Position numbers and translations under genes: made by a program. This document shows, one piece after another, positions 12,336 through 28,561 of a stretch of 64,000 bases of DNA. The notes beneath the pieces are model-generated. The model was not told where the DNA came from. It ran no database searches and saw nothing but the letters and a program-made list of their open reading frames with translations. Origin of the DNA: Candidatus Gastranaerophilales bacterium (lineage in GTDB: Bacteria > Cyanobacteriota > Vampirovibrionia > Gastranaerophilales > Gastranaerophilaceae); contig CANPYC010000006.1 of the NCBI GenBank assembly GCA_947587615.1, positions 1 through 64,000 of the forward strand, written 5' to 3'. How positions within the stretch are numbered: position 1 is the first letter of the stretch; each line of letters starts with the position of its first letter.

Positions 12336-13431
12336 TTTTTACCTCGTTAATTCTAATAATATCCCTGCGAGCTATATTTATCCATTCGTCAAAAATTATT
12401 TCCGCATCTTTTGGTCCCGGGTTTGCTTCAGGATGAAATTGAACGGCATAAACTCTCTGACCCGAGATTTCAAACCCTTCAAGCGTTCTGTCGTTAAGAT
12501 TTATATAAGTCGGGCGCATTATGGCGGTAATTGAATTAATATCAACCGCATAACCGTGGTTTTGGCTTGTCATAATAACTTTTTGATTTTCCAAATTAAA
12601 CACGGGATGATTTGCGCCCCTGTGCCCGTATTTAAGCTTATATGTCGAAGCACCCGCTGCAAGAGCCAAAAGTTGATATCCTAAACAAATACCAAATATT
12701 GGCAGATTTCCCATTAACTCTTTTATTTGTGCTATTTGAAAAGTATAATTAGCAGGGTCTCCTGGGCCGTTTGATAAAAAGAGTGCGTCAAAATTTCCTT
12801 CCAAAATCTCTTGAGCGCTTACGGTTGCGGGGAAAACGGTAAGCTTACAGCCCCTTTTTGCAAGCGAGTTTAATATTCCTTTTTTTGCTCCGTAGTCAAT
12901 AAAAGCCATATTAATTTTACCGTCATTATTAAACTCATATTTTTGCTTGGGGCTAACATCAAGAATAATATCTTTTTTTGTATAAAAATTGTTTAATTTT
13001 TCAAGTTTTTCATTGATTTGAAAAACATCCAAATCCGAGCTTGTAATATAAGCCGCCATTGTACCGTATTCTCTAATTTTCTTAACAAGGCTTCTTGTAT
13101 CAATATTATCAAGAGCCACTATATTTTTTGATTTTAAATATTGCGTGAGTGTATCTCTGGATTGATAATGGCTTTCAACTTGCGATACATTTTTTACAAC
13201 AAAACCTAAAAGAGCAGGCTTATCTGATTCAAAATCGGTATTGTTAATTCCATAATTTCCAATTTCAGGGTATGTCATAACAATTATCTGCCCTGCATAA
13301 GAAGGGTCTGTTAAAATTTCCTGATAGCCGACTATTGAGGTATTAAAAACAATTTCCCCTTCATAAGCTCCGATTGCGCCAAAAGAATTACCTTTTATAA
13401 TACTCCCATCCTGTAATAATAATGTTGCCAC
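12325..13431 (-). CDS. carA: Carbamoyl-phosphate synthase small subunit
   Basis: Class I glutamine amidotransferase GICLGYQLLALAAG and QFHPEANPGP motifs; overlaps carB start. Confidence 0.97.
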   Translation of the reverse strand: MATLLLQDGSIIKGNSFGAIGAYEGEIVFNTSIVGYQEILTDPSYAGQIIVMTYPEIGNYGINNTDFESDKPALLGFVVKNVSQVESHYQSRDTLTQYLKSKNIVALDNIDTRSLVKKIREYGTMAAYITSSDLDVFQINEKLEKLNNFYTKKDIILDVSPKQKYEFNNDGKINMAFIDYGAKKGILNSLAKRGCKLTVFPATVSAQEILEGNFDALFLSNGPGDPANYTFQIAQIKELMGNLPIFGICLGYQLLALAAGASTYKLKYGHRGANHPVFNLENQKVIMTSQNHGYAVDINSITAIMRPTYINLNDRTLEGFEISGQRVYAVQFHPEANPGPKDAEIIFDEWINIARRDIIRINEVKNER

Positions 13432-14174
13432 TATATCACCTCTTGAACTTCTTTTTCAATTTCTTCATAAATCTTTTTAATTGCTTCAACTACATCAGGC
13501 GCCTTTGTAACGGCTCTACCCAGTACTATAAAATCAGCCCCGTTTTTTATGGCATTAGAAGGCGTATTAATTCTTTTTTGGTCGTCAACATTTGCCCATA
13601 GGGGTCTTATTCCGGGGGTTAAAACCAAAAAATCATCCCCCAGTTCTTTTTTAATTAGCCTAATTTCATTTGCCGAAGCAACAACACCATCCAACCCCGC
13701 TGATTTAGCGTTTTTTGCCAAGTCAAGCACAAACTCTTGAAGTGTTTTTTTATTTGAAAGCTCGTCTTTTAAAGTTTGCTCATCAATACTTGTTAAAACG
13801 CTAACACCAAGAATTAAAGGTTTTTTTGTATTAAAATCTTTGCTTGCTTTATTCGCCCCTTCTCTTGCGCTTTTCATCATCTTAATTCCGCCCGTGGTAT
13901 GGACATTAAAAAAAGTTGCGCCGTTTTTTATGATGTTGTATGAAGCACGCTCAACCGTATTTGGAATATCATGCAATTTAACATCCAAAAAAAAGTCGGA
14001 ATTTTTTTCTTTAATATAATTAATAATTTCTAATCCGCAGCCGCAAAAAAGCTCTAAACCGACTTTAAAAACTCCGACATAAGGACTTAATTTATCCACA
14101 AGAGTTTTTGCTTTTTCAATTGTTTCAACATCAAGCGCTAAAACCAGCTTCTGTCTGATTTTTTCATTAATCAT
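13431..14174 (-). CDS. pyrF: Orotidine-5'-phosphate decarboxylase
   Basis: DVKLHDIPNTV active-site motif. Confidence 0.96.
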   Translation of the reverse strand: MINEKIRQKLVLALDVETIEKAKTLVDKLSPYVGVFKVGLELFCGCGLEIINYIKEKNSDFFLDVKLHDIPNTVERASYNIIKNGATFFNVHTTGGIKMMKSAREGANKASKDFNTKKPLILGVSVLTSIDEQTLKDELSNKKTLQEFVLDLAKNAKSAGLDGVVASANEIRLIKKELGDDFLVLTPGIRPLWANVDDQKRINTPSNAIKNGADFIVLGRAVTKAPDVVEAIKKIYEEIEKEVQEVI

Positions 14175-15163
14175 ACTATTATTTTTCCTTTTAGCTCCAT
14201 ATTTTCAAAGGGTGTAATTTTGCATTTAGATTGCATTTTATCCCCCTTAACAACCCAAGTTGCATTTAAATTTACCCTTGTTTTTAAATTATTTTCAATT
14301 CTTAAAATTTTCCTTGGGTTATATGCCATTTTCTCAAGGGTTTTATCAAGCCCTAAAAGCGAATAGCTTAAGCTGAACGCCGTTTCTAAACCAATAACCC
14401 CGTTTAGCGCTTCATTATATGGTTTTAATTTTTCTTCAAGGCTGTGAGGTGCATGGTCTGTTGCTATAACATCAATTGTATCATCCAAAAGAGCGTTTAT
14501 TATTGCTTCTTTATCTTCTTTTTTACCTAAAGGCGGGTTCATTTTAAATTTTCCCGTATTATCGCCGATATTTACCACATCCTCTTTTGTAAAAGTAAAA
14601 TAATGCGGCGCAGTTTCAGCGCTTACCCCAAGCCCTTTTGATTTTGCTTTTTTAATAAGCTCTATACTTTCTTTTTTTGAAACATGGCAAAAATGAAGCC
14701 TCGGCTCAAACCCTTTGTTTTTAGCCAATTCAAAAAGCTCAATCTGCCAAGAAATTTCAGAAGCTTCATCTTCACAGTGCGATAAAATTAAATAACCGCT
14801 CTTTAGTGCCTTTAAAAAAACCTCTTTATCCAACAAAGGTAAACCGTCATTTGAAAAACCAACAGCGCCGCTTTGCGTAAGTTCATCAAAATTAACAAGC
14901 TCTAAACTATCAAGATTTTTTGTAATAGCAGCAATTGGGTAAATATTAAAATTTAGCTCTTTTGCTTTATTTAGAATATATTTAATTATTGAAGGATTAT
15001 CGCAAACGGGCTTTGTATTAGGCATTGTACAAACACCTTTAAAACCACCACAAATAGCGGATTTTACCCCTGTTTCAATGGTTTCTTTATAGGTAAACCC
15101 CGGTTCTCTAAAATGCACATGCATATCTATTAAAGAAGGTATTTCAACTGTTTGATTTTCCAT
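14171..15163 (-). CDS. pyrC: Dihydroorotase
   Basis: DMHVHFREPG and DVIATDHAPH motifs. Confidence 0.95.
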   Translation of the reverse strand: MENQTVEIPSLIDMHVHFREPGFTYKETIETGVKSAICGGFKGVCTMPNTKPVCDNPSIIKYILNKAKELNFNIYPIAAITKNLDSLELVNFDELTQSGAVGFSNDGLPLLDKEVFLKALKSGYLILSHCEDEASEISWQIELFELAKNKGFEPRLHFCHVSKKESIELIKKAKSKGLGVSAETAPHYFTFTKEDVVNIGDNTGKFKMNPPLGKKEDKEAIINALLDDTIDVIATDHAPHSLEEKLKPYNEALNGVIGLETAFSLSYSLLGLDKTLEKMAYNPRKILRIENNLKTRVNLNATWVVKGDKMQSKCKITPFENMELKGKIIV

Positions 15164-15171
15164 TTTTCCTT

Positions 15172-16062
15172 TTATAATCCTTGCGAAGCAAGCACCAAAT
15201 CAAGAATAGCCATTCTGACATAAACCCCGTTTTTAGCTTGATTTAGTATTGTTCTTGCGTTTTGAAGCTCTAAAACATCGCTTCTGATTTCAATATCTCG
15301 ATTAACAGGCCCCGGGTGCATTAAAAACGCAGCATAGGGCAGGTTTTCTTTTGTAATTTGAAAATTATTTATATAATAATCAAAATCAATATATTCTTGT
15401 ATTCTTTCTCTTTGTATTCTAAGAGCCATAATTATATCACTGCCTTCAAAGGCTTCAGGGAGGGATGTATAATACTTAACCCCTTCAATATGCGCCCCTT
15501 GAAAGTTTTCAGGGGCTAAAACACGCAAATTCATTCCGAATTTTTTCAACAGCACTATATTTGACTTTGCAACACGTGAATGTGCAACATCCCCTACAAA
15601 AGTTATTGTTTTTTGATTTAAGTCAAGAAAATGTTTTTTAATTGTATAAAAATCAAGTAATGCCTGTGTAGGATGAGCCGTAGCGCCACTTCCCGCATTT
15701 ATAAAAGAAATTTCCTGATAAAATCTTCTATTTGCAAGATTATTTACCAATAAATCGTCAGAATGTCTTAATATTACGGCATTCATACCAATTGCAGTTA
15801 AATTATTTATTGTGTCAAATATATCTTCTCCTTTGTTTAAAGAAGAAGTATTTGCGCAAAAATCATACATATTTGCATGGATTTTATTTGCCGCCATTTC
15901 AAAAGACATTTTTGTTCTTGTTGAATTTTCAAAAAACATTGTAGCAACATGTGCGTTAATGTGATTTGACTTTCTTATACCTTTTTCAAATTCACACGCA
16001 CGGTTGTAAATTTGTATAATGTCATCTGTTGTCAAGCTTTCAATATTAATCAAATGTTTCAT
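15172..16062 (-). CDS. pyrB: Aspartate carbamoyltransferase catalytic subunit
   Basis: FFENSTRTKMSFE, HPTQALLDF, HPGPVNR motifs. Confidence 0.97.
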   Translation of the reverse strand: MKHLINIESLTTDDIIQIYNRACEFEKGIRKSNHINAHVATMFFENSTRTKMSFEMAANKIHANMYDFCANTSSLNKGEDIFDTINNLTAIGMNAVILRHSDDLLVNNLANRRFYQEISFINAGSGATAHPTQALLDFYTIKKHFLDLNQKTITFVGDVAHSRVAKSNIVLLKKFGMNLRVLAPENFQGAHIEGVKYYTSLPEAFEGSDIIMALRIQRERIQEYIDFDYYINNFQITKENLPYAAFLMHPGPVNRDIEIRSDVLELQNARTILNQAKNGVYVRMAILDLVLASQGL

Positions 16063-16072
16063 TTTTCTAACC

Positions 16073-16645
16073 TTATTTTCTGCTTCCGGGTTTAATTAAC
16101 TCAATGCCTTGCTTGCACAAGGGACAATCTTTAGCTTCATAAGTTATTGGCGATGAAGTTAAAAGTGAATATATTTCAAATTTGTCTTTAAGTTTTCCCT
16201 GAGTTCTGTCTACTATACAACCCACGGCTGCAATTTCGCAATTATATTCTTTGATGGCTTCAATTGTTTCAAAAATCGTTTTTGCGGTTGTTATAACATC
16301 TTCAATTATTACGACTTTTTCGCCTTTTTTGAGCGAATAGCCCCGTCTTAGCTGCATTATGTTATCTTTTCTTTCCACAAAAAGATTTCTTTTTTTTGTT
16401 TGTTTTGCAACTTCGTACCCAAATATTATAGCACCGATAGCAGGAGCAACAATAGTATCAAACTTAATATTTTGTAACTTTTTAGCAAGCTCTTTGGCTA
16501 AGGTTTCGACTACATCAGGATATTGGTACAATTTTGCACATTGAAAATATGTATCGGAATGAAGCCCTGAAGTAAGGCAAAAATGACCGCTTAAAAGCCC
16601 GTCCGCTTTTGTTAACAATTCTTTAACATCAATTTTTTCAGTCAT
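16073..16645 (-). CDS. pyrE: Orotate phosphoribosyltransferase
   Basis: PRPP-loop VVIIEDVITTAKT; operon context. Confidence 0.95.
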   Translation of the reverse strand: MTEKIDVKELLTKADGLLSGHFCLTSGLHSDTYFQCAKLYQYPDVVETLAKELAKKLQNIKFDTIVAPAIGAIIFGYEVAKQTKKRNLFVERKDNIMQLRRGYSLKKGEKVVIIEDVITTAKTIFETIEAIKEYNCEIAAVGCIVDRTQGKLKDKFEIYSLLTSSPITYEAKDCPLCKQGIELIKPGSRK

Positions 16646-17579
16646 TTTTGATTGCTCCTTTTAACTTTTCTAAGTCCTCAAAATTATTTTTTACCATAAA
16701 ATCATTTAATTTAACAGCTAAATCATAACAAATTGTCGGATTTGTAAAGTTTGATGTACCAACCTGAAAAGCGTCCGCACCACAGAAGAAAAATTCAAAT
16801 AAATCATTTAATGTACTTATTCCGCCCATGGCAATTATGGGAATTTTTACCGCTTCTTTAATTTGTTTTATCATATAAAGCGCAACGGGTTTCACACAAG
16901 AACCCGAAAGCCCGCCTTGAGTGGTTTTTTTAACAAACTTATCATTTATATATTCAATTTTAACCCCGAGCGCTCTTATTGTATTAATTGCGCTGATACA
17001 ATCCGCACCCGCTTCTTGGGCAGCAATTGCAAGGGATTTAATTATGCTTGTATTGGGTGAAAGTTTAACAATCAAAAAACCTTTATAATTTTTTCTGATT
17101 TTTAGAGTAATTTCATAAAGGCTATCCGGGTTTAAACCAAACTCCAAACATCCCTTATTAACGTTAGGACAAGAAACATTTACTTCAAGCGCTTTAATAT
17201 TATTCTCGTTTGCTTTTTGTGCAAGCTTTTCATAGTCATCAGGGGTTGAGCCTGCAATATTCAAAAGAAAATCTATATTTTTTTCTTTCAAAATCGGCAG
17301 TTTTTCCCTTAAAAAGCTTTCTATTCCGATATTTTCAAGACCTATGCGATTAATTAAACCGCCCTTAACTTCAAAAAGCCGCTCTCCAGCGTTACCCGCT
17401 CTTTTTTCAAGGGTTATTCCTTTTGTTGAAATTGCACCAAAACAATTTAAATCGATAAAATTTTCATATTCGTCACAATAGCCGTATGTTCCGCTTGCGG
17501 CAATTATCGGGGATTTTAGAGTAAGGCTGTTATTTGTTTTTGGATTTCTTAAAATTGTTTTAAGTCTTTTTAATTCCAT
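16638..17579 (-). CDS. pyrD: Dihydroorotate dehydrogenase (class 1B type)
   Basis: NVSCPNV motif, adjacent to pyrK. Confidence 0.94.
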   Translation of the reverse strand: MELKRLKTILRNPKTNNSLTLKSPIIAASGTYGYCDEYENFIDLNCFGAISTKGITLEKRAGNAGERLFEVKGGLINRIGLENIGIESFLREKLPILKEKNIDFLLNIAGSTPDDYEKLAQKANENNIKALEVNVSCPNVNKGCLEFGLNPDSLYEITLKIRKNYKGFLIVKLSPNTSIIKSLAIAAQEAGADCISAINTIRALGVKIEYINDKFVKKTTQGGLSGSCVKPVALYMIKQIKEAVKIPIIAMGGISTLNDLFEFFFCGADAFQVGTSNFTNPTICYDLAVKLNDFMVKNNFEDLEKLKGAIKND

Positions 17580-18307
17580 AAAACCTCGCTTCCTGAAAAT
17601 ACGGGCCCGTCTTTACAAACTGAAGCGTTAATTTTTTCGTTATTTTTCAAAAGATTTATAACGCACCCTCTGCAAACTCCGATTGAGCAAGCCATTACTT
17701 TTTCAAGGGAAATTTCCGTTTCAATATTCATTTTATTTGTAATTTCACAAAGTTTTTGAAGAACGATATTAGGGCCGCAAGAATATATCTTCTCGATTTT
17801 TCTTTCTTTTATTATATTTTCAATATTATCTAAAACGCTTCCGCCAATTTTTGTTTCATCACTTCCTTTAATTATTTCATCATCAGCCCTAAAACCTGAT
17901 ATCAAATAATTTTTAATATTTTTCTTATTCATTTCTTCTTTTAAAAAAAGCATTGGCGCAATTCCAATCCCTGCACCGATAAGCAGCGAATTTTTATTTT
18001 CAATGTTAAAACCTCTACCCATAGGAGCAAGAAAATCAACTTCATCATTGGCTTTAAGGGTTTTAAAGTAGCCCGTTGCTTCGCCTTTAACTTTATATAG
18101 AATTTTTATGATATTATTATCAAAACCGGCAATGCTAAAAGGACGTCTTAGCGTTTTAAAGGGGCAGAGCATTGATACAAATTGCCCCGCAGAAGCACTT
18201 TCAAGGTCTGATTTAATTAACATCTTACAACAGTCTTTTGCAATTAAATCATTTGATATAACCTTGCCTTTATATTCTTTGTAATCTTTTTTATTGTAAT
18301 CTTTCAT
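17570..18307 (-). CDS. pyrK: Dihydroorotate dehydrogenase electron-transfer subunit
   Basis: FAD/NAD fold plus C-terminal [2Fe-2S] Cys cluster (CSIGVCRGCVINL...C). ORF track starts at a TTG (18310); ATG at 18307. Confidence 0.9.
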   Translation of the reverse strand: MKDYNKKDYKEYKGKVISNDLIAKDCCKMLIKSDLESASAGQFVSMLCPFKTLRRPFSIAGFDNNIIKILYKVKGEATGYFKTLKANDEVDFLAPMGRGFNIENKNSLLIGAGIGIAPMLFLKEEMNKKNIKNYLISGFRADDEIIKGSDETKIGGSVLDNIENIIKERKIEKIYSCGPNIVLQKLCEITNKMNIETEISLEKVMACSIGVCRGCVINLLKNNEKINASVCKDGPVFSGSEVLWN

Positions 18308-18327
18308 CAATTCCTCATACTATAAAA

Positions 18328-18780: not shown

Positions 18781-20310
18781 TTATGAATAAACATAAGGAG
18801 GCCCGTTTTTAATTTCTATCAAAATATTTTCCGCCAGTTCTTTTAATTCTTCTTTAGATTTACCCTTCTCGAGCTGAACAATAAAGTTATCAATCATTGG
18901 GTTAATTGCGCTCATTTTCTTGGATTTAAAGTTTCTAACTTCAATATCAACAAGTTCTTTTCTTAGCTCAAGCTCGTTTTTAGTGTTTTCTTTATGCACC
19001 ATAACCTCTTTAACTGCGTCTGCTGCCGATTTTACAAGATAACCCGTTGCGCTTATCGTACTAAAAGTTAAGAAAAGATATTTGTTGAATTTGCTCTCGG
19101 GATTTAATATCCAGTTATATAAATGTCCTCTGTCTTCATTGATATAACAGTAATATTGAATTTTTTCGCTTATACCGCCTAATGCCTCGGGTGCTTGAGC
19201 ATAAATTTGAGAATTTCTGATTTCCTTTATTGCGCTTTGAACTTCATCATCGCTTATACCTTTTATTTTTCTTAAATAGGTATCCATTGTCGTTTCTTTG
19301 GCATTAATACTTTTTAAGATATTTACCGTTTCTTTTATGGCTTTTTCTTTAGATGTATTTTCACCCGCCTTAATCAAGCTTGCTTTGATAATTTTATCTT
19401 CATATCTTTCTTTAAAGGTATCAAGATTTTTAAGGGTTTTATGATAATTTTTAATTAATGCGTATGATAAAGCGACCGTTGCTCCAACCATTCCTAATGC
19501 CATCAAAATATATAAAGGCTTTTTATTTTTATCTTCTTTTTGGTTTTCTTTGGCTTTTTTTTCTTGGTTAGCCTCTTGTTTTTGTTCTCCTTTAAAATTT
19601 AAAAATTTCTTAAAAGCCGTGTTTGAAAATTTGTCACTCAAAGTCTTTTTAAAATAATCCGTTGTATCTTTTAAAAGAGTGTTAACCGTATCCAATTTTC
19701 CTCTAAAAGCGTCTGTTTCAACCTCAATAAGACTTTGTTGATAATCTCTTTCAATATCATAAGTTTGCTTTTTTATCCAAACTTCCTTAAAGGCGTCTGT
19801 TGCGTTTTTTGCAGCCAGAGTTATTCCGCTCATCAAGGCAACACCAACCAATCCCAAAACATTTTTTGTATTCGGATCTCTAAGCGCTCTATACATTGCA
19901 AAATGCGGTTCTTCCATGATATTTATATTTCTTGCTAAATCATCGGGTCTTATAAGAATTTCATCTTTTGCCATTGAAGCCGAATATTTTTTTGCACAAA
20001 TGCTTATTGCGCCGACCGCTCCAATTATGGAAAGTGTGCCTATAACAACAGGTTTTAGAATATTTTTATAATTTAGCTCTTCTTTGGTTTCTTTTTCTTC
20101 TTTTTTTGTTTTAACTTCATCAGGTATTAAAAGGCTTTGAGAAATCCTGTCAAAATCATCAAGACTGCCAATCTCACGATTTTTAATGTAGTTATTTAAA
20201 AGAACACCTTTAAGGGTTTCATTATTTTGATTTTTGTTTTCGCCCGATTTAATTACGGGAGATTTTTGTTGGGGTTGTTTTCTTTTTATATCAAGCGGTG
20301 ATATGCTCAT
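18781..20310 (-). CDS. Hypothetical membrane protein with internal duplication
   Basis: 509 aa ORF; two related modules (DAFKEV... / DAVKEV...), several hydrophobic segments. Confidence 0.8.
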   Translation of the reverse strand: MSISPLDIKRKQPQQKSPVIKSGENKNQNNETLKGVLLNNYIKNREIGSLDDFDRISQSLLIPDEVKTKKEEKETKEELNYKNILKPVVIGTLSIIGAVGAISICAKKYSASMAKDEILIRPDDLARNINIMEEPHFAMYRALRDPNTKNVLGLVGVALMSGITLAAKNATDAFKEVWIKKQTYDIERDYQQSLIEVETDAFRGKLDTVNTLLKDTTDYFKKTLSDKFSNTAFKKFLNFKGEQKQEANQEKKAKENQKEDKNKKPLYILMALGMVGATVALSYALIKNYHKTLKNLDTFKERYEDKIIKASLIKAGENTSKEKAIKETVNILKSINAKETTMDTYLRKIKGISDDEVQSAIKEIRNSQIYAQAPEALGGISEKIQYYCYINEDRGHLYNWILNPESKFNKYLFLTFSTISATGYLVKSAADAVKEVMVHKENTKNELELRKELVDIEVRNFKSKKMSAINPMIDNFIVQLEKGKSKEELKELAENILIEIKNGPPYVYS

Positions 20311-20319
20311 TTTTTTCCT

Positions 20320-21021
20320 TTAATTCTCTTTTTCTTCTTCAGCTTCTTTTTGCGATTTATCTTTTATTTTAAATATTCCTTTTAAAACTTTTTTCAGCTC
20401 TTTTGATTTAATTTTTTTCTTCTCTTCTTTTTCTTCTTCATCCTCTTCGCCTTGCGCAAAGAATGAAAGCAGGGTTTTCATTGCTTTTTTAACATTCTTT
20501 GTAAATGTTTCATTTATAAAGTTTTTAGCTTCTCCAAGTACGGCTGCTAATTTTTCACTTACTGAATTTACAAATTGATTTACATTTATAAAAAACCCCT
20601 GAATATTATTTATGAGCACGGGAAGTTTTGCAACTAAATTCATAATTGGTTGAATTATATTTTTAACAACAAATTTTATAGGGGCTTTTATTACTTGCGG
20701 TAAATTTTCAACGTTTTTCATAACGTTTTCAATATTTTTTTGAATTTTATCAAGTCCTTGTGTTATGCGATTTTCTAAAGACCTGACTTGCAGGTTTTCA
20801 AGTCTTTCAAGCTTAGCTTCAATTTTAGCATTCTGCGCAGCCTGAATTTTAATCCATGCCGCCATACACTCATTATAAGTCATCTCACCAGGCTTGCGGG
20901 GGGTGTTTCTGTCGGTTTTCCCGCCGCCACCCATACCGTTACAGATAGGACAAGCGCCAATAGGATATCCGTGCGGACATTTATTATTATTTTGAGTTCC
21001 TTGAATGAATGGTGCCGTCAA
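20320..21021 (-). CDS. Hypothetical protein with N-terminal CPHGYPIGACPICNG motif and acidic/basic C-terminal tail
   Basis: Likely start TTG at 21021 after GAGGAAG (minus strand), rather than the GTG at 21057 in the ORF track. CxxH-like/CxxC Cys motif suggests metal binding. Confidence 0.75.
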   Translation of the reverse strand: MTAPFIQGTQNNNKCPHGYPIGACPICNGMGGGGKTDRNTPRKPGEMTYNECMAAWIKIQAAQNAKIEAKLERLENLQVRSLENRITQGLDKIQKNIENVMKNVENLPQVIKAPIKFVVKNIIQPIMNLVAKLPVLINNIQGFFINVNQFVNSVSEKLAAVLGEAKNFINETFTKNVKKAMKTLLSFFAQGEEDEEEKEEKKKIKSKELKKVLKGIFKIKDKSQKEAEEEKEN

Positions 21022-21190
21022 ATTGCTTCCTCGTAATTTTCCGGGTCGCAATAGCACAATAAGAAGTTCAAAACGTCTTTGGAAATTCGCAAAATAACGT
21101 TTTCAGTATTCCGACTATACGGCTGCGACCCAGTCAGGGAATTTCACCCTTATTTCCTGTTTATGTTTATTTCTGTTTACGTTTATTATA
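21019..21190 (-). promoter_or_regulatory. Candidate cobalamin-type riboswitch with RBS-proximal kissing-loop platform
   Basis: Minus strand ACGTAAACAG...CAGGAAATAAGGGTGAAATTCCCTGACTGGGTCGCAGCCGTATAGTCGGAATACTGAAAACGT: resembles the B12-box GGTGAAAnTCC...ACTG...CGCAGC core. Closing helix 21179-21183/21096-21100. GGGTCGCA (21124-21131) is complementary to TGCGACCC (21043-21050), 11 nt before SD GAGGAAG. A -10-like TATAAT lies at 21185-21190. Confidence 0.6.
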
Positions 21191-21310: not shown

Positions 21311-22078
21311 TTACTTTTTTCTTATAAAGTCTAAAACTGCATTGATAAATGTTAAAGGATGTACGGGACATCCGGGGATGTATAAATCAACTTTATATTT
21401 TTGCAAAAATTCACGATTTATCTCGCTTGCTTCTTGATATACGCCGCCCGATATTGCGCAAGCTCCGCAAAGTATTACTATTCTTGGCTCAGGGGTTGAT
21501 TTATAGCAATCTTCCAAAGCATAAGCCATATTTTTTGTAATCGGACCCGTTACAACAATTCCATCAGCATGACGAGGTGAAGCTACAAAATCTATTCCAA
21601 ATCTTCCCATGTCAAAATTAGCGTTTGAGCAGGCATTAAGCTCCATCTCACAGCTGTTGCAGCCGCCTGCCGATACTTGTCTGAATTTAATTGAGCGATT
21701 ATAGATTGAATAAATTTCTTTTCTTACTTCAATTGCTTTTTTATGATAATCTTCAGGGGTTGTTCCATCAAGCACAACAAGCTTTTCAAGTTTATCCGCT
21801 CCTAATTTATAATAATTTGAAAAGTGTATTGCGCCGCTGCAGTTGTTTTTGCATATTCTTTCACATGCCCCGCAAAAAGTACATTTTCCAAGGTCAATTT
21901 TTAAAGGGTTTGTTGATATAGCGCCAGTCGGGCAAATATTAGCACAAGCATTGCAATTTTTGCATTTTGAATTGTCAAGCTCGGGTAAACCCCTGAATTG
22001 GCTTCTCATTGCTGCATTTTTTATATCAGGTATAAATTGATTTTTTTGAGTTAATTTCATTTTCAACGTATCAAACAT
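21311..22078 (-). CDS. Group-4 hydrogenase-like small subunit fused to an N-terminal 2x[4Fe-4S] ferredoxin domain (HyfI/NuoB-like + HyfH-like)
   Basis: CKNCNACANICP and CTFCGACERIC clusters, then SAGGCNSCEMEL, CGACAISGG, PGCPVHP. Confidence 0.88.
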   Translation of the reverse strand: MFDTLKMKLTQKNQFIPDIKNAAMRSQFRGLPELDNSKCKNCNACANICPTGAISTNPLKIDLGKCTFCGACERICKNNCSGAIHFSNYYKLGADKLEKLVVLDGTTPEDYHKKAIEVRKEIYSIYNRSIKFRQVSAGGCNSCEMELNACSNANFDMGRFGIDFVASPRHADGIVVTGPITKNMAYALEDCYKSTPEPRIVILCGACAISGGVYQEASEINREFLQKYKVDLYIPGCPVHPLTFINAVLDFIRKK

Positions 22079-22096
22079 ATTTTATTTTCCTTTGAA

Positions 22097-23548
22097 TTAT
22101 AAATCAAAACCGCAGTAAGAAAGGTCAAAACCTTTGTTACACAACGGAAAATCTGATACACCGTTGTTTCTTACCGCCATAGCTAAACCAAACCAGTTAT
22201 TAAAAGACGGGTCTTTAATTTTATAACGAGAAAGCTTGCCTTCTCCATCCGTTGTTGCAATATGAACAACTTCACCTCTCCAACCTTCAACAATGCTCAG
22301 CGCAAAGCTGTCCGGAATAAATTTTTTAGGTTCAAGATATAGTGCGTCAGCTCTTCTTTCTTCCATTTTTTTAAGTAATTTTTTAACAAAACGAATAGAA
22401 TCTTTAACTTCTCTATATCTTATACTAAATCTTGAATAAGCGTCATTTGTTGCTTTAAAAGGCTTCTTTTCAAGGTCTTTATAAAATTCATCACAAAAAT
22501 CAAATCTTGAATCAAGTTCAATTCCGCAAGAGCGACCTATCATTCCGACCAAATTAAGCTCAAGCGCCGTATCTTTTGATACAACCCCTGTTTTTTCAAG
22601 TCTTGACATAACGGTAGAACTCTTTAGCGCTGCTTTGGTCATTTTATTAACGGTATCTTTAACTTGAGAAAGCATTGAGATAATCTTATCAGACATTTTT
22701 TCATCTATATCAAAGTTAACCCCGCCAACGGTTATTAAGCCTTTACCAAATCTGCTTCCTGATATTTCAAGCATAGTGTTAATTACAAGAGTTCTTGTAA
22801 CCGCATAAACTTCTTTACCCATTAAATAGGCAATATCACCCAAAATTGCGCCCATATCGCCTATGTGTATTGCAATTCTTTCCATTTCAAGAGCAATTCT
22901 TCTAATCAACTTTGCTTTTGTTGAAATTACGCTCTCGCCAAGGCTTTCCATAACTTGAGAATAAGCCATGTTGTATGCTATTGTGCTATCTCCGCAGATT
23001 GATTCTGCCAGTTGGTTTGAAGGTTTTTTAACCATTAAATCTTCAACACCTCTGTGTTGATATCCGAGCATAATTTCTAAGTTATAGACTTTTTCTCCGG
23101 AGCACATAAATCTAAAATGCCCCGGCTCAATTACCCCCGCATGAATTGGCCCAACAGCTACTTGGTGAGTTTGTTCACCTTCCATCTTAAAAAATTCATA
23201 GCTGTCGAGATTTTTTCTGACAGGTTTAAGCCAAGGATGTCCTTTTGGAAGAATACCGAATTGTTCATAAAATTCACGCTCAAACATGTGATATTGATGA
23301 TTTTCTTTTGTAATTGAGTCGTATTCTTTTAAATTTTTATCAATTAAAGCAGAGCTTACTAAAATTTCACCTTTTTCATCATCGGCAAGCGCTGTATACA
23401 ATTTAATCTTATCGCCCCAATCGCTTCCAAAAAAAGCCAGAGGACGAAGATTGCTTATTGCGAGCTGTTCTTTTAAAGAATTAAATTCAACTGTCGGGAT
23501 ATCAGAGATATTTATTCGTTGATTATTTTTAATTGCTATATAGTTCAT
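22097..23548 (-). CDS. Group-4 hydrogenase-like large subunit (HyfG/HycE/NuoCD-like) with degenerate NiFe motifs
   Basis: NuoC-like N-terminus plus GYQHRGVEDLM; L1 motif reads ESICGDS instead of CGIC; C-terminus DLSYCGFDL instead of DPCxxC. Confidence 0.88.
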   Translation of the reverse strand: MNYIAIKNNQRINISDIPTVEFNSLKEQLAISNLRPLAFFGSDWGDKIKLYTALADDEKGEILVSSALIDKNLKEYDSITKENHQYHMFEREFYEQFGILPKGHPWLKPVRKNLDSYEFFKMEGEQTHQVAVGPIHAGVIEPGHFRFMCSGEKVYNLEIMLGYQHRGVEDLMVKKPSNQLAESICGDSTIAYNMAYSQVMESLGESVISTKAKLIRRIALEMERIAIHIGDMGAILGDIAYLMGKEVYAVTRTLVINTMLEISGSRFGKGLITVGGVNFDIDEKMSDKIISMLSQVKDTVNKMTKAALKSSTVMSRLEKTGVVSKDTALELNLVGMIGRSCGIELDSRFDFCDEFYKDLEKKPFKATNDAYSRFSIRYREVKDSIRFVKKLLKKMEERRADALYLEPKKFIPDSFALSIVEGWRGEVVHIATTDGEGKLSRYKIKDPSFNNWFGLAMAVRNNGVSDFPLCNKGFDLSYCGFDL

Positions 23549-23558
23549 TTTATTCTCC

Positions 23559-24992
23559 TTAACCCATTATTGTTGTTCTAATCATAATATCTAAAAACTT
23601 AGGAATATAAACCCCTAAAACAAATGCAATTGTAAGTAAAGCCATTTGAGGAATGTACATTGAAGGGGTAATTTTGTTCAAATTAGCCTTGGCTTTTTCA
23701 AAACGTTCTTCGTTCTTTTGTCCGAATACCATTTTAATAACAACTTTTGCCATTGCAAAAAGTATTATTGTTAAAAGAATTAAAAACAGAGCACAAAGTA
23801 TATAGTGTCTTTGAATTAAAAGCGTTTGAACAATGAAAAACTCGCTTAAAAATAAAATGCTTGGAGGAAAAGCGCAAATACCAAGGAAAGAAACTATCCA
23901 AAGCCATGATGTCTTTTTATCCAAATCGCCAAGTGCTCTTATTGATTTAATCTTTTTGGTTTTAAACAGTTCTAAAATATTGCCCGATGTCATAAAGAAC
24001 GAAGCTTTAATTAAAGAATGACCGATTAAATGAAGAACCATTGCAAAATACGCAACTCCACCCAGAGAAGCCGCTATTGCCAAAATTCCCATATTTTCAA
24101 TTGAAGAATAAGCAAGCATTCTTTTATAGTTTGTTGTTCTGTATAAAAATACGCTTGTTACAAATAACGATAAAAAGCCCATCGTCATAAGCATTGTTCG
24201 AGCGCAAAATATGCAATTAGCTAAAAGCATAATTTTATAAATATTTAAAATAACCAAAAAAGCACAGTTTAATAATGTTGCTGATAACAAAGCGCTAATC
24301 GGGCTTGGTGCTTGAGAGTGAGCGTCAGGCAACCAGAAGTGAACGGGAGCTAAGCCCATTTTTGTACCTATACCGAAAAGAATGAAAACAAAAGAAACAT
24401 TCAACCAAAAATGATTGAAATTTGCTGCATTTGCCATCATATCTTCGTAGTTTAGAGAATTTAAGTTGCCCGTTGCAATTGTCAGAAGAATAATTCCCAC
24501 AAACGCTAAAGCAATCCCGATTGAACAAATAAAAACATATTTCCAAGCCGCTTCAATAGAGTGTTTGGTTTTATTAAAGTAAATTAAATAAGCGGAAGCT
24601 AATGTCGTTCCTTCAATAAATATCCAAGCTAAACCCAGGTTATCGGCTAAAATACTTCCTGTCATTGATATTACAAAAATTAAAAGCATTACAAAGTAGT
24701 GCATCATTTTTTTGTTATCAAATTCCAAAGCTAAATTTCTTGAATAGCCGATATTGTAAATTGATACAGCCAAAAATACTACTGATAATATAATATAGAA
24801 AATTATATTTGAAGAATTAAGGTTAAAATATTGATTATTCAACATTATATCAGGGCGAATAAAATATATTGCACCCAATGAAGCGTGTAAAATTGCATAA
24901 AGAAGAGTAAAAATATTATTTAATTTGTTGTTTTTTATAAAAAACGCAAGTATGCAAAAAATTATAGGTATTATAAAAACTAAACTAATCAT
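23559..24992 (-). CDS. Proton-translocating antiporter-like membrane subunit (HyfF/NuoN-like)
   Basis: GIGTKMGLAPVHFWLPDAHSQAPSPISALLSA motif, many TM segments. Confidence 0.9.
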   Translation of the reverse strand: MISLVFIIPIIFCILAFFIKNNKLNNIFTLLYAILHASLGAIYFIRPDIMLNNQYFNLNSSNIIFYIILSVVFLAVSIYNIGYSRNLALEFDNKKMMHYFVMLLIFVISMTGSILADNLGLAWIFIEGTTLASAYLIYFNKTKHSIEAAWKYVFICSIGIALAFVGIILLTIATGNLNSLNYEDMMANAANFNHFWLNVSFVFILFGIGTKMGLAPVHFWLPDAHSQAPSPISALLSATLLNCAFLVILNIYKIMLLANCIFCARTMLMTMGFLSLFVTSVFLYRTTNYKRMLAYSSIENMGILAIAASLGGVAYFAMVLHLIGHSLIKASFFMTSGNILELFKTKKIKSIRALGDLDKKTSWLWIVSFLGICAFPPSILFLSEFFIVQTLLIQRHYILCALFLILLTIILFAMAKVVIKMVFGQKNEERFEKAKANLNKITPSMYIPQMALLTIAFVLGVYIPKFLDIMIRTTIMG

Positions 24993-25644
24993 TGTCGCAG
25001 TCCTTTAAATCAGATAAGTGAGTAACTTCCATATCGCCTAATTCAGTGTTAATTTCAGAAACAAACAGTCCTAAGATATAAATTGCAATAAATACATCCA
25101 ATAAAACACCGATATTAACAAGCATTGGCATTTCTTTTGCAACGGATAGCGATAAAAGAAAAATACCGTTTTCCATTGTTATAAACTCAATAACATTTGA
25201 TAAAATTTTATGTTTAATTGTAATAAGCCAAAGACTTATAATTATTGTTGAAAGAGCAATACCAAAGCAAATCGGGTTAATCATTGACAGGGAAGGAATA
25301 TCAACAACGGATATCATAAAACCGCCAAACAGTATTAAACTTGAAATTAAAAGGCAGTAAAAATGAGCGATGTTTGCGTCCGTATCACGATTTGAATGAG
25401 TTTTTTTAACAACTTTATTTAAAAATAAAGGAATTAAAATTGCTTTAACAATTAATGTTTCAACCGTTAAGAAAGTTATTGCAACTAAGGGCATGTGAGA
25501 AAAACCCATTGCACAAATTAAGAAAAGTAAAATTCCTTGAATCATAACGATTTTAACGTGTGCTATTAATCTACTTGTTGTAGATAAATAAAGCATTGTA
25601 AGACCAAAAAGTATTATTAAACCATTTACCATACTACACTCCAA
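24985..25644 (-). CDS. HyfE/NuoK-like membrane subunit
   Basis: Small polytopic protein in hydrogenase-4 gene order. Confidence 0.8.
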   Translation of the reverse strand: MECSMVNGLIILFGLTMLYLSTTSRLIAHVKIVMIQGILLFLICAMGFSHMPLVAITFLTVETLIVKAILIPLFLNKVVKKTHSNRDTDANIAHFYCLLISSLILFGGFMISVVDIPSLSMINPICFGIALSTIIISLWLITIKHKILSNVIEFITMENGIFLLSLSVAKEMPMLVNIGVLLDVFIAIYILGLFVSEINTELGDMEVTHLSDLKDCDND

Positions 25645-26563
25645 ACATTTTAACGGCTGCTAAGGAAGCTACAACAAGAGCAAATGAGCACATAACAAAT
25701 ATAAATTCAAACACATGGCTCATTCTAAATCTTGCTATGCCTGATTCAAGCGTACCTATTATAAGAGCTAAAACAAAAATAATTAAGAGAAATAATGCGC
25801 CGGATAAAGCTAAAGACAGGTCATTGGGAATAATAAAATTAGCAATTAAGCCCATTAAAATCACCATCTTTATACCGTTTGCCCAAGTGCAAAGCGCTAA
25901 ATCAACCCCTGAATTATCAAGTATCATAACTTCGTGTATCATTGTTAATTCCAAGTGCGTTGTAGGGTCGTCAACAGGAACTCTTGAGCATTCGCTCAAA
26001 AGCATAACTAATAGTGCTATAACAGCTATAATAGTAATCAAAACCCCGAAACTTCCCCAATTTTGTACTAAATTTGTTATTGAAGAAAAGTTATAATTTC
26101 CGCTAAGAGCTATTGTTGAAGCAAGAATAATAAAGAAAGCCGGTTCAATTATTGTTGTAAAACAAGCTTCTCTGCTTGCCCCCATGCCTTCAAAACTGCT
26201 TCCCGTATCCATTGCGCCAACAAGAGCAAAGAATTTTCCAAAACCCAAAACATAAGAAAATATTATAAATGCAGCTTCAACATCAACTATACTTACCCCT
26301 TTAATCATTGGAGCAAATAGACCCGCACACAGTGTTGTTGTTAAAACAACAATCGGAGCAATGCTAAATATCCATGATGTTGTTGTACTTATAACACGTC
26401 TTTTTTTGAATAATCTTAAAAAATCCCACAATGGCTGCATTATGGATACGCCATATCTTCCGCCCCAAAAGGCTTTTGTTTTTTTAATTATCCCGATTAC
26501 AAAAAACGGAGCAATTAAAAGGATTATAAAATTAACAATTGATATTAATAAATTATTTTCCAT
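25634..26563 (-). CDS. HycD/HyfC/NuoH-like membrane subunit
   Basis: SRVPVDDPTTHLELTMIHEVMILD, GRYGVSIMQPLWDFLRLFKK. Confidence 0.9.
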   Translation of the reverse strand: MENNLLISIVNFIILLIAPFFVIGIIKKTKAFWGGRYGVSIMQPLWDFLRLFKKRRVISTTTSWIFSIAPIVVLTTTLCAGLFAPMIKGVSIVDVEAAFIIFSYVLGFGKFFALVGAMDTGSSFEGMGASREACFTTIIEPAFFIILASTIALSGNYNFSSITNLVQNWGSFGVLITIIAVIALLVMLLSECSRVPVDDPTTHLELTMIHEVMILDNSGVDLALCTWANGIKMVILMGLIANFIIPNDLSLALSGALFLLIIFVLALIIGTLESGIARFRMSHVFEFIFVMCSFALVVASLAAVKMFGV

Positions 26564-26590
26564 TTTTTCTTTTCCACTTCGTTTAATATA

Positions 26591-28561
26591 TTATCCCAAC
26601 GCTACTACACCCGCTAAGGCAAGAACCAAGAAAATCAAACCATACATAATATAGCTTTGAATATTTCCGTTTTGAATTTTTTCAAATCCCGTTAAGAATT
26701 TTTCAATAGCGCTTATTACAGGCTGCAAGAAATATGCTTCTTCAACATCTTCCATGTGAAGCGAGTAATGGGCTTCCCCTTCAAACACTGCTTTTGGTTT
26801 TTTAATATCTGCAACCCTTTTAAATAGAGGAGTTAGAGTACTAATAAAAGGAGAAGCATAACTTGAAGCGCTATATTGCATATAAGGATTAGCTCTGTTA
26901 TAGCCACAGCCCCATGTTACGTGATTTTCAACATTTTTATAAATTTTAGATTTAAGAATATGTAAAAATACAATTGCAATTAACAAACCTAAGCTTACAA
27001 AAGATATTATCTGCATTAAATTTGTAATGTTGCTATAATCGCCGATTTCAACAAATATTGAAGCAGGTTTTGTTAAAACATCAAAAACAACTTCGGGGAA
27101 TATTCCAACAAATGTAATAAATAACCCTAAAATTGCCATAGGAAGAATAAATACGCTTGAATTATCTTCTTTAACCTTACTTGCGTTTTCACTTCTTGCT
27201 TCACCGAGGAAGATTATACTAAACGCTTTTGTAAAGCATAAAATTGCCATTGTGCCGACTAAAGCAAGTCCCGCAAGCGCTAAAATCATTGCAATAAATA
27301 CTATAAAATGATTAATCGTTAAACCTTTTAACATGCCGAAGTAAATTAAAAATTCGCTTATAAAACCGTTAAAAGGAGGTAAACCACAGATTGCAATCGA
27401 ACCTAGCAAAAAGAGCGCACCTGTTTTGGGCATTGATTTTAATAAACCGCCCAATATTTCAATATCTCTTGTATGGGTTTTAACATAAACGGAACCTGCC
27501 GCTAAGAATAAGAGTTCTTTAAATATAGAGTGGTTTAAAACGTGCAATATACCGCCCGTAAAACCTAGAACGGCAACGGGAGTGCAGTTATAAGTTAAAC
27601 CAATCATACCAACCCCGATACCCATTCCGATTATACCGATATTTTCAATACTATGATAAGCCAAAAGTCTTTTTAAATCATGCTGGCAAATTGCATATAA
27701 CACTCCATATAGAGCAGATATTGTTGATATTATAAGAACAAAAAAGCCTAATTTAGCGCTTGGTGTTCCTATTATATCAAGTGTTCTTAAAATTCCATAG
27801 ATACCTGTTTTAATCATAACACCCGACATTATACCCGATACATGGCTCGGTGCTGCGGGGTGAGCGTCAGGCAGCCAGTTATGAAAAGGTGTGAACCCTG
27901 CTTTTATACCAAAACCAATAAATGCCAAAATAAAAACAATATCGGCTATATAATTATCATTTGCTAAAACTGCCTTAAAGTGCGCAAAATCAAAGCTTGA
28001 AGTGTTAATTGTTAACAATACAAATGCTGCAATGATAAATACAACACTAACATGCATATAAACAAGATATTTTATACCCGATTTTATAACTTCAGCTTTT
28101 TCATGTTCAAAAATAACAAGGAAAAATGAAGATAAGCTCATTAATTCCCAAACAATTAAAAACGTCAGCGCATTTTGAACGGTTACAACCAAAAGCATTG
28201 AAGCTAAAAGCATTGGAAGAAAAATGCAGTGAGCACTTAAATCTTTTCCTTTTTCAATATAAGGTTTTAAATATCCGTTAGAGTAAATTACCCCTAAGGT
28301 TGACATAACGGAAATTACAACAACAAAAAATGCGCTTAAATTATCAAGCACAAATCTTACGTTTGGAAAAATTGTTCCAAAGTGAAGCGTGTATTCATAA
28401 TTACCGACAAATAAAGCGCTAAGTGCACTGAAGAGGGCAAAAATTGAACCTACAAGAGCGCCCAGCGTCACAAGTTTTAATTTTATTGATTGATTTTTGA
28501 CAAATAAACTCAAAAATGCGCCAAAAACCAATATAACAATTCCGATGAAAAAATTTTCCAT
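26591..28561 (-). CDS. HyfB/NuoL-like proton-pumping membrane subunit
   Basis: GFGIKAGFTPFHNWLPDAHPAAPSHVSGIMSGVMIKTGIYG; ~656 aa polytopic. Confidence 0.9.
   Translation of the reverse strand: MENFFIGIVILVFGAFLSLFVKNQSIKLKLVTLGALVGSIFALFSALSALFVGNYEYTLHFGTIFPNVRFVLDNLSAFFVVVISVMSTLGVIYSNGYLKPYIEKGKDLSAHCIFLPMLLASMLLVVTVQNALTFLIVWELMSLSSFFLVIFEHEKAEVIKSGIKYLVYMHVSVVFIIAAFVLLTINTSSFDFAHFKAVLANDNYIADIVFILAFIGFGIKAGFTPFHNWLPDAHPAAPSHVSGIMSGVMIKTGIYGILRTLDIIGTPSAKLGFFVLIISTISALYGVLYAICQHDLKRLLAYHSIENIGIIGMGIGVGMIGLTYNCTPVAVLGFTGGILHVLNHSIFKELLFLAAGSVYVKTHTRDIEILGGLLKSMPKTGALFLLGSIAICGLPPFNGFISEFLIYFGMLKGLTINHFIVFIAMILALAGLALVGTMAILCFTKAFSIIFLGEARSENASKVKEDNSSVFILPMAILGLFITFVGIFPEVVFDVLTKPASIFVEIGDYSNITNLMQIISFVSLGLLIAIVFLHILKSKIYKNVENHVTWGCGYNRANPYMQYSASSYASPFISTLTPLFKRVADIKKPKAVFEGEAHYSLHMEDVEEAYFLQPVISAIEKFLTGFEKIQNGNIQSYIMYGLIFLVLALAGVVALG

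Follow-up and report, generated by a model that had tools for sequence, protein, structure and literature searches.

Class-II cobalamin (AdoCbl-II or 'AdoCbl-variant') riboswitches (RF01689) combine a conserved core with a short P6 arm and a cis-regulatory position, and are marine in the survey table of Weinberg et al. 2010 (PMC2864571). The env8 hydroxocobalamin riboswitch (PDB 4FRG, 4FRN) has a compact aptamer too; it is proposed to repress translation and carries its ribosome binding site in the L13 loop of its 3' hairpin (PMC10907184). Kissing loops usually comprise five to seven pairs (PMC10907184); in those known, CCG is the functional part of L5 (PMC10653944). As for Melainabacteria, B12 is absent from the main text of the founding genome paper (PMC3787301), and the literature that we searched held nothing relevant on a riboswitch in this group.

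The locus presented here lies within the window, by which we mean the whole 64,000-nucleotide stretch of Gastranaerophilales DNA that was analysed. A first-pass annotation of the letters alone had proposed, on the minus strand, a candidate cobalamin riboswitch that looked compact, class-II-like and short in its P6 arm, and we find the sequence it quoted there. Scanning the whole window at Rfam gathering thresholds gives no match. In a focused scan of 4227 families the aptamer matches RF01689 with E 1.8e-6, its 34.2 bits lying below the gathering cut-off of 36.5 bits, so that a default scan misses it; this cut-off is a curated threshold, not a structural feature. The Infernal check suggested with the proposal agrees with it in class, if sub-threshold. 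Compared with the whole of Rfam by covariance model, the locus has RF01689 as its best family, aligned over the full model (1-81), and the window copy is the only match in the 2.13-Mb genome (genome-wide E = 2.3e-6). The class I cobalamin riboswitch, RF00174, stays under threshold at the locus (17.4 bits against a cut-off of 31.5), and matches to DsrA, Teg49 and IMES-5 were rejected as far under their own cut-offs. The conserved core elements GGAAA, GTGAAANTC, CGCANCCGT and AGYCGGAA follow one another in that order. The closing helix P1 is weak, as it is in many relatives, and the ACGT...ACGT element previously taken to close the core, though present, more plausibly forms the stem of a hairpin on the 3' side of the aptamer. 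The Shine-Dalgarno (SD) sequence and the TTG start codon of ORF1 (21021-21019) are as first described. We regard the identity of the riboswitch as close to certain.

Table 1. Features of the riboswitch-controlled operon, in window coordinates.
Feature	Position	Strand	Evidence
AdoCbl-II (class-II cobalamin) riboswitch aptamer	21096..21167	-	RF01689, 34.2 bits; orthologous leaders of relatives above cut-off; P3 and P6 covary (132 aptamers)
L5 strand GGGTCGCAG, partner in downstream pairing	21123..21131	-	sequence; permutation and shuffle tests
Putative P13 hairpin AAAACGT...ACGTTTT, loop GCGAATTTCC (candidate L13, GCGA against L5 UCGC)	21070..21103	-	sequence; most leaders have a CG-loop hairpin 3' of the aptamer
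Anti-L5 strand TTGCGACCC, proposed anti-aptamer strand, also in SD-sequestering helix	21043..21051	-	exact L5 complement; compensatory variants; 0/1000 within-set permutations as good; two-state folding
Shine-Dalgarno GAGGAAG of ORF1	21026..21032	-	sequence; pairing probabilities
ORF1, 233 aa, TTG start; invariant N-terminal C-P-H-G...C-P-I-C motif, rest helical; no known family	20320..21021	-	
ORF2, 509 aa, ATG start; membrane protein, long helices, internal duplication; no known family	18781..20310	-	

The junction helices P3 and P6 are backed by compensatory changes across homologous leaders. Of 132 distinct aptamers, 123 form the outer P3 pair, with six pair types, against a shuffled mean of 73; P6 pairs 1-3 are formed in 130/132, 129/132 and 121/130 (shuffled means 86, 97 and 85), where the shuffling takes no account of sequence relatedness. 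All pair counts refer to motif-anchored positions, as MAFFT put the 5' strand in the wrong place in some alignment rows. Beyond P3, conservation of the P1 pairs is poor, with 35-49% paired across relatives.

Of 192 family genomes, 177 contain an RF01689 match, which is above the cut-off in 146, many of these matches standing ahead of ORF1; in the order sample the figure is 224 of 242. Homologues of ORF1 occur in 170 of the 192. Among the matches listed, 108 of 151 share the strand of ORF1 and stand 70-250 nt upstream of it, and several of the others precede ORF1 as well. By motif pattern, all 117 ORF1 loci examined that carry the CPHG..CPxC motif have an aptamer core upstream, compared with 0/4000 shuffled leaders and 0/798 unrelated windows; the pattern was tuned on ORF1 leaders, which makes 117/117 a non-independent estimate. 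Exceptions appeared among loci added later: one aptamer (L199) has a longer insert, and one locus (L205) has none. At the latter (genome G143, contig C84), ORF1 stands shortly after another gene with no visible riboswitch, in a genome with a MetH-type cap domain. In other families of the order, an aptamer-like leader, degenerate in some cases, precedes ORF1 in five of five loci examined. By sequence comparison, RF01689 and ORF1-ORF2 are conserved together across the order, as a putative B12-switched operon. We set aside the joint loss of riboswitch and ORF1 from the same genomes as functional evidence, since one deletion removes both. The sub-threshold Rfam score of the window copy might still be put down to a chance resemblance without function; order-wide conservation, covariation and conserved synteny rule this out for practical purposes, and we give it next to no weight.

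The other targets of RF01689 in the order, at the loci examined, are mostly btuB-btuC-btuD-btuF, nrdD with nrdG, and metE (identities read from sequence by eye, FecCD being confirmed by Pfam). As these are classical members of the B12 regulon, a corrinoid is by far the likeliest ligand, and almost certainly still that of the copies ahead of ORF1, which belong to the same riboswitch class and have the same expected ligand. The first reading had also allowed for a shifted ligand. An aptamer that had lost corrinoid sensing would fit the uncharacterised target genes and the few known B12 enzymes of the host genome, but its core nucleotides are those of the btuBCDF, nrdDG and metE riboswitches of the same order, and we consider such a change very improbable. 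What sets ORF1-ORF2 apart from these sister operons is that their functions are known, whereas neither ORF matches a family. RF01689 also stands before genes outside the ORF1, btu, nrd and met groups, coding for a 94-aa protein in L192 and for a 473-aa protein of unassigned function in L182. Family-wide (e.g. L206-L222), the nrdD- and btuB-linked copies mostly share the L5 sequence CTGGTCCGCA, unlike most ORF1-linked copies, which suggests separate riboswitch lineages within one genome.

The L5 strand GGGTCGCAG (21131-21123) forms 9 pairs with TTGCGACCC (21051-21043), and only 0.2% of shuffles of the downstream sequence do as well. Over the 40 leaders of the GG type, the cognate pairing scores 16.8, against 10.7 +/- 0.4 for shuffled sequences and 15.5 +/- 0.3 for permuted partners, and none of 1000 permutations is as good. 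Compensatory variants are seen in L035 (GGGCCGCAG with TTGCGGCCC), L093 (GGGCCGCAA with TTGTGGCCC), L117 (GACCGCAGC with GCTGCGGTC) and L102 (GCCGCAGC with GCTGCGGC). In the unconstrained fold (MFE -43.9) the pairing of L5 with TGCGACCC grows to about 18 pairs, reaching the P5-side strand in a long anti-aptamer helix, and SD bases are paired with probability 0.23-0.64; when the aptamer is forced, the TTGCGACCC strand is freed, its neighbourhood pairs around the SD and the SD G bases are paired with probability ~1, all energies being those of secondary structure, which leave out ligand and tertiary contacts. In most leaders the aptamer is directly followed on its 3' side by a hairpin whose loop contains CG. 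In the window its candidate L13, GCGA, pairs with L5 UCGC; by eye, only some relatives keep this pairing.

The exact complement of L5 shortly before the SD, as first pointed out, stands at nine pairs, while the L5-L13 kissing-loop role assigned to it is probably mistaken: the pairing is long and further downstream than such a loop would be, and a separate GCGA-loop hairpin occupies the place where L13 is expected. Since kissing loops are usually of 5-7 pairs and there is a separate CG-loop hairpin 3' of the aptamer, we read TTGCGACCC as probably an anti-aptamer (ON-state) strand that competes with ligand binding. One could instead see L5:TGCGACCC as a kissing interaction stabilised by the ligand, so that cobalamin promotes the pairing and the adjacent SD is occluded. 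L5 is indeed the loop used in known cases, the functional CCG overlaps L5:TGCGACCC (PMC10653944), and in several relatives the complement is found in an SD hairpin loop or immediately ahead of the SD. With 9-10 pairs in place of the usual five to seven (PMC10907184), an MFE fold that extends into the P5-side strand and, in most leaders, a separate CG-loop hairpin just 3' of the aptamer, we think this version rather unlikely. Under the anti-aptamer reading the locus resembles env8 in its compact aptamer, its proposed translational repression and a 3' hairpin as candidate L13, and differs from it in that the ribosome binding site lies further downstream and the L5-complementary strand would compete with the aptamer.

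In the 75 leaders outside the GG type, L5 complementarity is no higher than in shuffled sequences; therefore their platform works differently. An SD hairpin is present in 59 of them, against about 2 by chance, and in all 59 the anti-SD arm also complements the consensus of the 5' aptamer strand. From their structures, both platforms are predicted to be OFF with ligand.

We propose that this class-II riboswitch shuts down translation of both genes of the operon at high corrinoid levels. In the ligand-free state, the downstream TTGCGACCC strand would capture L5, disrupting the aptamer and leaving the SD partly accessible. Once ligand is bound, the four-way aptamer would fold, L5 would be free to dock on the candidate L13 loop 3' of the aptamer, and the released TTGCGACCC strand would pair with the SD region and block translation. 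Judging from the predicted structures, translational repression is likely; riboswitch identity and OFF direction taken jointly we hold to be a good bet, if well short of sure. A lineage-specific membrane module, ORF1 with ORF2, would accordingly be made when corrinoid is scarce.

The riboswitch class itself is already known, and its unusual and consistent target, the operon, is the more interesting part. Measured against RF01689 as surveyed, where the table lists marine copies (PMC2864571), the aptamer is here found throughout gut Gastranaerophilales; its P1 is often weak, and its commonest position is before this uncharacterised operon. The two genes, described at the outset as uncharacterised and as no B12 transporter, match no known family: against Pfam, NCBIfam and PADLOC, ORF1 and ORF2 give nothing above cut-off, only chance coiled-coil or low-scoring matches, and no FecCD or related BtuCDF-type domain exceeds the Pfam and NCBIfam cut-offs. 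Neither has sequence relatives in the PDB. Structure models of both are of low confidence, with no transporter or binding fold recognisable; a Foldseek comparison of the low-confidence ORF2 model with PDB folds returned nothing at E <= 0.001.

Across 20 homologues the ORF1 motif CPHG.P.G.CPIC is invariant, as are residues C15, P16, H17, G18, P20, G22, C24, P25, I26, C27, E46, C52 and E164, which suggests a metal site. Three segments of ORF2 (residues 83-108, 148-171 and 263-287) are clearly hydrophobic, and the internal duplication of the protein is recovered by hhalign with probability 96.9 and E 1.6e-10. In many relatives (L066, L067, L072, L074, L080 and others) ORF2 is directly followed by a third gene, about 150-190 aa long and bearing a motif like NYxxxDxxKVDxFVKQxExALPY, which is absent from the window. 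The operon is flanked upstream of the riboswitch by a complex-I-like or Ech-like hydrogenase operon (21311-28561, minus strand) and downstream of ORF2 by a pyrimidine biosynthesis cluster (13431-18310, minus strand).

The link to corrinoid physiology that the first-pass annotation had surmised for the two genes is borne out by way of the riboswitch upstream. In the genome of the window we found no BtuC (FecCD), no MetH-type B12-binding domain, no QueG and no full NrdJ; as visible users of corrinoid it has B12-binding radical SAM-type proteins. The same genome encodes, on contig C10 (L188:855-2138), a truncated, 427-aa NrdJ-like protein (NCBIfam E 5.5e-34, well under cut-off) in which no NPCGE motif is recognisable by eye, and the other genus members searched have weak NrdJ matches of about this length; the protein may possibly be a pseudoenzyme. 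Family-wide, FecCD is present in 16 of 192 genomes and a MetH-type cap domain in 23, and the ORF1-ORF2 operon is kept mostly in genomes without BtuC and MetH. A clear ORF1 also occurs in 12 of the 16 FecCD-bearing genomes; therefore it does not simply stand in for BtuC.

Our leading guess, a tentative one with the other outcomes together more probable, is that ORF1-ORF2 may form a new system for acquiring or trafficking corrinoids, common in Gastranaerophilales and found in most (BtuC-less) genomes of the family, with the riboswitch as its B12-sensing control. Uncharacterised B12-acquisition proteins of Bacteroides thetaiotaomicron offer a precedent for studying unknown proteins of B12-uptake operons as acquisition factors (PMC12751083); the parallel is one of possible role, and ORF1 and ORF2 are not known lipoproteins or B12 binders. 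As the main alternative, the operon would be a B12-sparing backup for a corrinoid-dependent process, repressed when B12 is available as nrdD and metE would be. Control of nrdDG and metE by the same riboswitch class in the order speaks for it, as does the persistence of ORF1 in a family most of whose genomes have neither BtuC nor MetH; against it, neither protein has an enzyme-like domain and ORF2 resembles a membrane scaffold, and we find it a doubtful, if serious, candidate.

With different expression platforms occurring naturally on a single aptamer class, these leaders lend themselves to experiments on how L5 links ligand binding to translation. Most gut Gastranaerophilales have not been cultured, and little is known of their B12 economy; a widely kept riboswitch-controlled operon of uncharacterised membrane proteins, in genomes that mostly lack BtuC or MetH, points to unrecognised corrinoid physiology in these bacteria.
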